From assembly GCA_028703105.1 (NCBI GenBank), contig JAQVNN010000006.1, forward strand, positions 1-54,716: DNA of 54,716 bases, in the 5' to 3' direction. The notes beneath the pieces were generated by a model. That model saw nothing but the letters and a program-made list of their open reading frames with translations, did not search any database and was not told where the DNA came from. The stretch comes from Paludibacter sp. GTDB lineage: Bacteria > Bacteroidota > Bacteroidia > Bacteroidales > Paludibacteraceae. The position numbers and the translations under genes were made by a program. Below, piece by piece: positions 2,731-34,598 of the stretch; position 1 is the first letter of the stretch, and the number at the start of each line of letters is the position of its first letter.

Positions 2731-2847
2731 AAAATTTTTGGTTTAAAGATAATACAATTCTATCTTAACTTTATGCCCAGGTTTTGGGGAATGTCTTAGA
2801 TAAACGATTGATAAATTACCAATTCATAAATTAATCCAATTTTTTTT

Positions 2848-2855
2848 TATCTTTG
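2848..2855 (+). promoter_or_regulatory. Bacteroidetes -7 element TATCTTTG
   Basis: TATCTTTG 20 bp upstream of ATG at 2875. Confidence 0.5.
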
Positions 2856-2874: not shown

Positions 2875-3825
2875 ATGCAGCAGAAATTTACATCTTCCAG
2901 CAAAATGAATGATCTGATCAAAGAGGATACTTCTTTGCTGTTAACCATGACGCGGTTTGGTTTTTCGTTGGGATTTGGCGACAAAACGGTGAAGGAAGTC
3001 TGCATGGAAAAGAAGGTAGATGAGAAAACTTTTCTGGCGGTTATTAATTTTATTTCTAACGGATACAAAGAGGAAAACATCAACCACGAAATTATTTCAA
3101 TCGATGCAGTCATTCTTTATCTGCGCAATGCCCATGACTTCTTTCTCGACTTCAAACTGCCGCTTATCCGCAAAAAACTGATTGAGGCTATTGATAGTTG
3201 TGTACAGGAACAACCTTACCGAAAAATGATCATGAAATTTTACGATGACTATGTGGCTGAAGTTCAGAAACACATGGATTATGAAAATGAGACTGTTTTT
3301 CCGTATGTTTTAAGTCTGCTCGAGGGCAAGAAAAATCCGCGGTACAACATCGCCGTATTTGAAAAAAACCATGAGAATATCGACTCGAAACTATCTGATC
3401 TGAAGAATATTCTCATTAAATATTTCCCGGCACAACAGCCCAATTATTTGCTAAATGAGGTGTTGTTTGATCTTTCAGCTTGTGAAAAGGACCTTGAGAA
3501 ACATAACCGGGTAGAGGATCATTTCTTTGTTCCCATTACTGAAACCCTGGAGAAAAAGTTGAGTACAGCAGTAAAAGAGGAGCCAACGGCAGCGGAAAAA
3601 GTCGACAACCTGACTGAAAGAGAGAAAGAAATCTTAGTCAGCGTGGTAAAGGGACTTACCAACAAAGAAATTGCAAATAAGCTTTTTTTGTCAACACATA
3701 CCGTTATCTCGCACCGCCGGAATATAACCCGCAAATTAGAGATACACAGCACAGCCGGATTAACCATATATGCTATTGTAAACAAACTGGTTACTCTTGA
3801 CGAAATAAAATCAGTAATTGAATAA
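2875..3825 (+). CDS. RIC/YtfE-like diiron (hemerythrin) sensor domain fused to LuxR-type HTH
   Basis: Ligand pattern H (AHDFF), HxxxE (HMDYE), H (NHEN), HxxxE (HNRVE) as in RIC/YtfE; C-terminus LTEREKEILVSVVKGLTNKEIANKLFLSTHTVISHRRNITRKLEIHS = LuxR HTH. Confidence 0.85.
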   Translation: MQQKFTSSSKMNDLIKEDTSLLLTMTRFGFSLGFGDKTVKEVCMEKKVDEKTFLAVINFISNGYKEENINHEIISIDAVILYLRNAHDFFLDFKLPLIRKKLIEAIDSCVQEQPYRKMIMKFYDDYVAEVQKHMDYENETVFPYVLSLLEGKKNPRYNIAVFEKNHENIDSKLSDLKNILIKYFPAQQPNYLLNEVLFDLSACEKDLEKHNRVEDHFFVPITETLEKKLSTAVKEEPTAAEKVDNLTEREKEILVSVVKGLTNKEIANKLFLSTHTVISHRRNITRKLEIHSTAGLTIYAIVNKLVTLDEIKSVIE

Positions 3826-33335: not shown

Positions 33336-34058
33336 TTACAGCAAACTTTTCTCTAACTCTATAGCCTTAGGGAAAAGAATATTGTTCTCGAGGTGAATGT
33401 GCATGTGCAAATCTTCCTCGAATTCTTTCAACAGAGCAAGTGTAACCCGGTAGGTATTGCAGGCATCAAAAGGAGGAGTATAGTTATCCGTCAGCTTGTC
33501 AATTGTACGTAATTTTTCACCGCCAGCATCATGTTCGGTATGTAATTCATCTATCAAATCCTGAATAGTACCAAACGAAGGTTGATTATAGGTCTCCTCT
33601 GAATCCTCCACCTGTACCATTTTTTTAATCGCAGGAAATAACATTAACTCCTCTTTTTTCATGTGTTTGGTCATATTTCCGGCAACAGCATAAAACAATT
33701 GTTCTACCTCGATAAGTTCCGGATGACGTTCTCCGTGTACTCTTGCCACTTTTTCCATGAAAGGAGTAATTTCCTGAATTCTTGTTGTTACATACCGGTG
33801 ATGTTTCTTCTCAATGTAATCGGCCAATAAGTCCAATGGCCACGATCTGTAGTCGGTTCCTGTGTTGTCATTCGACTGAATCGCCTGTTGTAATTGTGCA
33901 ATTAGTTGGTTACTGTCAATTTCTTTTCCTGCACAGGCATCTGCAATACTCTGGTTGCCATTGCAGCAAAAATCGATTCCATAACGTTTGAAAATGGGTG
34001 CTGTACGGTAGTCTAATGCTACCAGCTGACCAATGTTGTTGTTTTGTGTAATGTTCAT
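33336..34058 (-). CDS. ric: Iron-sulfur cluster repair diiron protein (RIC/YtfE/ScdA)
   Basis: ScdA_N-like IFKRYGIDFCCNGNQSIADAC; ligands KKHH, HMKKE, EHD, HIHLE. Confidence 0.93.
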   Translation of the reverse strand: MNITQNNNIGQLVALDYRTAPIFKRYGIDFCCNGNQSIADACAGKEIDSNQLIAQLQQAIQSNDNTGTDYRSWPLDLLADYIEKKHHRYVTTRIQEITPFMEKVARVHGERHPELIEVEQLFYAVAGNMTKHMKKEELMLFPAIKKMVQVEDSEETYNQPSFGTIQDLIDELHTEHDAGGEKLRTIDKLTDNYTPPFDACNTYRVTLALLKEFEEDLHMHIHLENNILFPKAIELEKSLL

Positions 34059-34123
34059 AATCTTTATTTTTTATCAGCCACAAACCGTGACCTACTTGTT
34101 TATCTGTTTGTTGTATTAATTTG

Positions 34124-34149
34124 TATTTCGGATAAATTTGTCTTAAATA
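34124..34149. promoter_or_regulatory. Candidate Rrf2 operator B (rrf2-ric intergenic)
   Basis: TATTTCGGATAAATTTGTCTTAAATA; 21/26 identical to the site at 34635-34660. Confidence 0.5.
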
Positions 34150-34163
34150 AAAAGAAAATTTTT

Positions 34164-34598
34164 TCAACGTACTAAAATTGCTTCACCTGATTGAAGTTTG
34201 GTTGCTAAATCAAATAAACTGGTGGTTTCCAGCATGGTTTTTAATTCTGATCTGACTTTAGCAAACTCGTTGTGTATCGGACAGGGCTTTTCTTTGCTAC
34301 ATTCGCTCAGACCTAAACCACAACCATTGTAAACCGAATCACCATCAATTGCAAAAACGATGTCACTTATTTTGATTTGTTTCATCATTTTCGCATTTAT
34401 TTCAAAACCGCCATAAGGACCGGTCAGTGAATTCACAATGCCCTGCTTGTTTAATGTGCCCAGAATTTTTGCTGTGTAGGCTTCCGGGGAACCGGTGTGT
34501 TTAGCAACGTCGCCTATTTTCACCCGTTTATTTTCGAGTGACTGAGTGGCAATGTAAATCATTGCTTTGATGGCATGTTCGCAGGCTTTTGAAAACAT
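34164..34598 (-). CDS. Rrf2 family transcriptional regulator with Cys cluster
   Basis: ACEHAIKAMIYIATQS...VKIGDVAKHTGSPEAYTAKILGTLNKQGIVNSLTGPYGGFEI; CGLGLSECSKEKPCPIH. Confidence 0.92.
   Translation of the reverse strand: MFSKACEHAIKAMIYIATQSLENKRVKIGDVAKHTGSPEAYTAKILGTLNKQGIVNSLTGPYGGFEINAKMMKQIKISDIVFAIDGDSVYNGCGLGLSECSKEKPCPIHNEFAKVRSELKTMLETTSLFDLATKLQSGEAILVR

Follow-up and report, generated by a model that had tools for sequence, protein, structure and literature searches.

The Bacteroidales are major gut and oral bacteria. Their iron sensing is poorly understood, and the available text of PMC10434189 lists among iron-starvation genes, without a mechanism, an operon encoding a hemerythrin-domain protein and the LuxR-type regulator CdhR (PG1236-37 in P. 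gingivalis, BT0519-20 in B. thetaiotaomicron). According to that text, iron depletion induces the operon 2-7x in P. gingivalis and 16-20x in B. thetaiotaomicron, CdhR acts as a regulator of hmuYR, though its mechanism is unclear, and Prevotella intermedia carries a fused form, PIN17_RS10465. Thus, the fusion itself is already known. In the portion of PMC10434189 available to us, we found no operator or feoAB link, and no iron sensor is named. In a literature search confined to papers free of subscription, the text accessible described neither the operator reported below, nor its link to feoAB, nor the loss of the receiver, and the locus tags PG1236-37 and BT0519-20 led to no paper besides PMC10434189.

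We analysed a window, by which we mean a whole stretch of 54,716 nucleotides from Paludibacter sp. (contig JAQVNN010000006.1), in which one gene encodes a diiron protein joined in a single chain to a LuxR-type helix-turn-helix, or HTH (Table 1). By the architecture described in the available text of PMC10434189, this gene belongs to the hemerythrin-CdhR operon family, since it shares with the PG1236-37 type a hemerythrin-domain protein coupled to a LuxR-type regulator, whether as operon partners or as a fusion. It differs from that type in lacking the receiver-like domain that lies between the diiron part and the HTH in the two-gene relatives. A single diiron-LuxR protein was found in the window's genome.

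Table 1. Features of the regulator gene and its promoter, in window coordinates.
Feature	Coordinates	Strand	Basis
Conserved block AGATAAACGATTGA...CAATTC.TAAA.TAATCC upstream of the -7 box	2797..2836	+	window/L004 alignment
Bacteroidetes-type -7 promoter box TATCTTTG	2848..2855	+	sequence; conserved in L004
Fused RIC-like diiron / LuxR-HTH regulator, 316 aa	2875..3825	+	ORF list, Pfam, TIGR03652, AF2
ScdA_N-like N-terminal helices, residues 11-60	2905..3054	+	AF2, relatives' alignment, profile comparison
Predicted hemerythrin-like four-helix bundle, residues 76-234	3100..3576	+	Pfam, AF2 helices, ligands
Disordered linker, residues 235-243	3577..3603	+	pLDDT <50
LuxR/NarL-type helix-turn-helix, residues 244-300	3604..3774	+	GerE, Foldseek

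Pfam placed a Hemerythrin domain at residues 103-220 (E 2.7e-9, above the curated cut-off) and a GerE/LuxR HTH at the C-terminal end (E 9.9e-19, 67.2 bits against a cut-off of 23.5), bearing out the appended HTH of the preliminary description. The RIC family model TIGR03652 (FeS_repair_RIC) matched residues 35-218 with an E-value of 2.8e-13, but at 50.1 bits against a cut-off of 204.7, below the family threshold. A likeness to the bona fide RIC at 33336-34058 of the window, noticed earlier by eye, was confirmed by profile comparison, in which the two proteins aligned end to end over 214 columns (E 6e-13). The AlphaFold2 model (13 rows, mean pLDDT 86) predicted helices at 76-109, 113-149, 169-183 and 191-234, followed by a five-helix HTH. 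A Foldseek search of the PDB with this model ranked YtfE first, and then ScdA and the DNA-binding domains of the NarL-family proteins LiaR and VraR, which superposed on the HTH at 1.2-1.9 A. All of these matches had a probability of 1.00, yet their E-values ran from 0.007 upward, none being below 0.001.

The protein shares with the RIC family (YtfE, ScdA, DnrN) six diiron ligands, a predicted four-helix bundle and a remotely ScdA_N-like N-terminus; it differs in its fused HTH and in the absence of the CC pair. Because Pfam ScdA_N gave no match to the protein, the N-terminal likeness must be called remote. The preliminary description was right that the CC pair is missing, and off by one place in setting 'LG' opposite it: in the profile alignment with the window's RIC, G33-F34 take that position. 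Residues 33-34 are mostly G and F among the relatives, which lack the CC pair throughout.

In E. coli YtfE the ligands are H84, H129, E133, H160, H204 and E208, E125 is the iron-exit glutamate, and loss of E159 leads to faster iron release (PMC8117158, available text). The ligands of the window protein, H87, H133xxxE137, H166 and H210xxxE214, match the six of YtfE one for one, and all six are invariant in the 94 relatives aligned. C43 is likewise C in each of the 93 relatives that cover its position. The equivalent of E125 (E129) is E in 83/94 relatives, and the equivalent of E159 in just 20/94, a pattern that suits a labile iron site, judging from the alignment. The preliminary description had staked its reading on a predicted four-helix bundle and on conserved ligands; both were found, and together with the HTH they support a RIC-like scaffold turned transcription regulator.

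An HMM of the diiron part matched 277 of 394 Bacteroidales genomes, and outside the order, in an even sampling of the phylum, the family appeared in just 6 of 118. The named Bacteroidales relatives (L006-L010) are unfused. In the split layout, a RIC-like ORF is directly followed, usually with overlapping frames, by an ORF that carries a receiver-like domain and a LuxR HTH. We examined 94 loci, 79 split and 15 fused; these numbers are not a frequency, because long frames were chosen on purpose and fused loci are thus over-sampled. The disordered linker of the window protein falls at the spot where the two-gene relatives (L006-L010 and the 79 split loci) have their gene boundary and receiver-like domain.

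The receiver-like domain of the split relatives is a pseudo-receiver. At the phospho-acceptor position it has N in 61/79 and D in 8/79, its acidic pair is mostly E-P, and the Pfam receiver model scored below its cut-off in the three split examples scanned. The receiver fold is still predicted, and it matched NarL-family response regulators with E-values down to 5.6e-10. The domain presumably serves as a docking face for the sensor. The window protein shares its HTH with NarL, LiaR and VraR, and its relatives share the NarL-like inverted-heptamer operator; unlike those response regulators, it has no receiver domain, and hence no phospho-acceptor Asp, and the receiver of its relatives has no phospho-acceptor.

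The receiver-like domain is absent from all 15 fused loci. In a tree of the diiron part plus HTH, the fused rows needed 5 changes, at least 3 of them forced by well-supported branches. In particular, the window protein and L004 nest with the split L039 of the same family, and the fused L073 is sister to the split L106. A single fused clade was rejected (AU p 0.00095). Because the fused rows do not form one clade, we conclude that fusion with receiver loss occurred more than once; parsimony points to the two-gene arrangement as the probable ancestral state.

Upstream of many diiron-LuxR operons lies a NarL-like operator, AATACCTAnnnnTAGGTATT in its symmetric form and AATACCTAnnnATrGkGATTG as observed, with inverted heptamers (TACC...GGTA) about an even centre. 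It was first seen by eye, after which a matrix was trained on self promoters only and applied at a threshold of 14 bits. Enumeration of exact dyads upstream of the operons returned AT-rich dyads only, barely above shuffles; it missed the operator because the operator is an imperfect dyad. Among self promoters, 34/92 exceeded 14 bits (99th percentile of shuffles, 10.3). The dyad is present at the regulator's own promoter in split and fused lineages alike, the fused L067, L068 and L070-L072 having retained it.

Promoters of feoAB stood outside the training set. The operator was found upstream of feoAB in 39/62 genomes with the regulator versus 1/41 without (Fisher p 4e-11; shuffles 1/515), and in 24/36 versus 1/30 after collapsing to families (p 3.6e-8). 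Here 'with' and 'without' were decided by an HMM hit, in a set that includes many fragmentary assemblies. The remaining 23/62 feoAB promoters in regulator-bearing genomes had no site at 14 bits. Genome-wide, operator counts were clearly above a reversed-pattern control only in genomes with the regulator (1.69 versus 0.49, compared to 0.66 versus 0.41 without). Both the operator and its link to feoAB are new here. The link between operator and regulator is a correlation, from which we infer that this HTH binds the operator.

In 18/34 self promoters and 28/39 feoAB promoters, exactly 31 bp separate the dyad centre from the Bacteroidetes -7 box, TAnnTTTG, downstream of it, and a spacing of 30 occurs in 4 more (background 0.4%). 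A spacing of 31 bp puts the dyad near -42/-43, with its right half-site over the -33 element. This is the class II activator position, as in lux boxes, and we conclude that the operator is placed for activation.

Operator and -7 box together, taken as a 47-bp pattern and searched in 12 genomes, led to Plug proteins of TonB receptors, to FeoAB and flavodoxin, and to the regulator operon itself; genes for FecR, for an ECF sigma factor and for a TetR regulator also lie downstream of it. One strict match, L276, looks like chance. In the window's own genome, feoAB has a 26.5-bit site, TCTACCTAATAATGGGGATTGT, 120 bp upstream of the gene, and the distance from the site centre to its -7 box is 32 bp. 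A site at a TonB receptor of this genome (C23:4097) has no -7 box at 31 bp and is merely suggestive. Own-genome matches to the pattern at 3 mismatches were mostly noise (11 versus 5 in the control), and the hit at C21:3945 falls within a coding frame. Inside the window, the best operator site reached 13.4 bits, no better than shuffles.

Several loci show related genes side by side. The FeoAB gene adjoins the diiron-LuxR operon in seven (L007, L088, L094, L098, L107, L111 and L115), and a flavodoxin gene lies divergently beside it in L128, L036 and L044. BT0517 (FldA) lies near BT0519-0520, in agreement with these flavodoxin neighbours. In one genome (G260; L131/L292), the regulator operon and a gene for an outer-membrane porin-like protein diverge from a promoter region that holds a second operator. 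In another (G166), an exact operator plus -7 box stands before a gene for an alpha/beta-hydrolase and is flanked on its opposite side by a small ferredoxin-like ORF of the 4Fe-4S type (L268). This genome also has an operator with its -7 box at 31 bp directly before an enolase gene (L291), which is unexpected for an iron regulon and may be chance.

We consider it probable that the window protein is an iron-responsive activator, in which a diiron iron sensor switches on iron uptake. The RIC-like four-helix domain would read the iron supply. Under iron scarcity the diiron site would be empty, and the LuxR/NarL-type HTH dimer could then bind the dyad, centred about 31 bp before the -7 box, and bring RNA polymerase to feoAB and to further genes of iron acquisition and iron sparing; iron filling the site would stop activation. 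In most Bacteroidales, sensor and HTH protein are the products of separate adjacent genes, presumably docked through the receiver-like domain, and in the window's lineage, and independently elsewhere, that domain was lost and the HTH fused straight to the sensor.

Against an iron sensor stand the 23/62 feoAB promoters without a site and the window gene's own promoter, where no canonical site was found. RIC relatives respond to NO and oxidants, which also counts against it, and hemerythrin sites react with O2. The diiron site might instead sense O2, NO or redox state and control iron genes because oxidants and NO destroy iron centres, a signal close to the O2/NO/Fe-S stress of the preliminary description. 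In the available texts, a PG_0686 mutant shows raised cdhR expression, with H2O2 as well as under anaerobic conditions (PMC10101095), and cdhR is named an NO-resistance gene (PMC11728304). However, the operator stands at feoAB, TonB receptors, flavodoxin and FecI/FecR, genes of iron uptake and iron sparing, iron depletion is what induces the operon in published work (PMC10434189, available text), and the frequent E125 and scarce E159 equivalents suit a labile iron site. We regard an O2 or NO sensor as unlikely and favour iron as the signal, with the apo form as the probable activator.

The available text of PMC6460266 describes feoAB of B. fragilis as iron-regulated in a Fur-dependent manner, and the motif is tied to the diiron regulator by correlation, so the dyad could belong to Fur or another NarL-type protein, with the diiron operon merely one target. 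FUR-family proteins, however, are present in 33/37 genomes checked among those without the regulator, yet a feoAB site occurs in just 1/41; the site does not follow Fur. Moreover, the even-centred, NarL-like TACC...GGTA dyad precedes the regulator gene itself, in split as well as fused lineages. Ownership by another regulator is, in our judgement, quite improbable. Compared to Fur, an iron-responsive activator of the kind we favour would share control of feoAB and TonB receptors, while being an unrelated protein and, by inference, an activator, whereas Fur is an iron-loaded repressor. It is very improbable that the diiron part is still an iron donor or nitrite reductase of the RIC kind, which the HTH merely tethers or regulates: the six ligands and the E125 equivalent, which are kept, speak for it, but the protein has no CC pair, scores far below the RIC cut-off, and shares its genome with a bona fide RIC.

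Returning to iron-responsive activation, we incline to the view that a RIC-derived diiron protein is in wide use among Bacteroidales as an intracellular iron sensor, and that a LuxR-type partner lets it activate feoAB, TonB receptors and flavodoxin directly, in addition to Fur or in its place. The receiver of that partner would then be a dead domain kept for docking, deleted more than once on fusion. We know of no earlier hemerythrin-type transcription factor for iron in bacteria, and this one, if true, would be the first: a kind of iron sensor new to bacteria and different from their usual ones, made from a repair-protein scaffold reused as a switch. The natural series from two genes to a fusion without receiver would then show which part carries the signal, and the operator and target list make the iron-sensing question directly testable in B. 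thetaiotaomicron. It would also be a bacterial parallel to FBXL5 and plant BRUTUS, in which a hemerythrin-type domain reads iron and adjusts iron uptake (PMC12022348, PMC6381054, available text), a likeness of function, with ubiquitin ligation as the eukaryotic output and transcription as the one proposed here.

The preliminary description had offered the gene itself and the adjacent antiporter as targets, and neither is favoured. The gene's own promoter gave a best matrix score of 3.0 bits, too low for a canonical operator. The conserved block upstream of its -7 box holds a GATTG-N9-CAATTC dyad, also conserved in L004, which is possibly a diverged, non-canonical operator and, on the evidence of this alignment, the only candidate for self-control here. 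The antiporter is not a conserved partner: of the relatives, only L004 and L005, both Paludibacter, have it downstream of the regulator gene, and none of the operators found adjoins it.

Just upstream of the regulator, at 1940-2572 on the minus strand, lies an ORF for an IS-type transposase with an integrase core (rve), and similarity to L004 resumes at 2797, where the conserved promoter block starts. Elsewhere in the window, at 33336-34598 on the minus strand, a gene for an Rrf2-family regulator is immediately followed by the bona fide RIC, which TIGR03652 scores above its cut-off. RIC and an Rrf2-family regulator are a usual NO/Fe-S stress pair.
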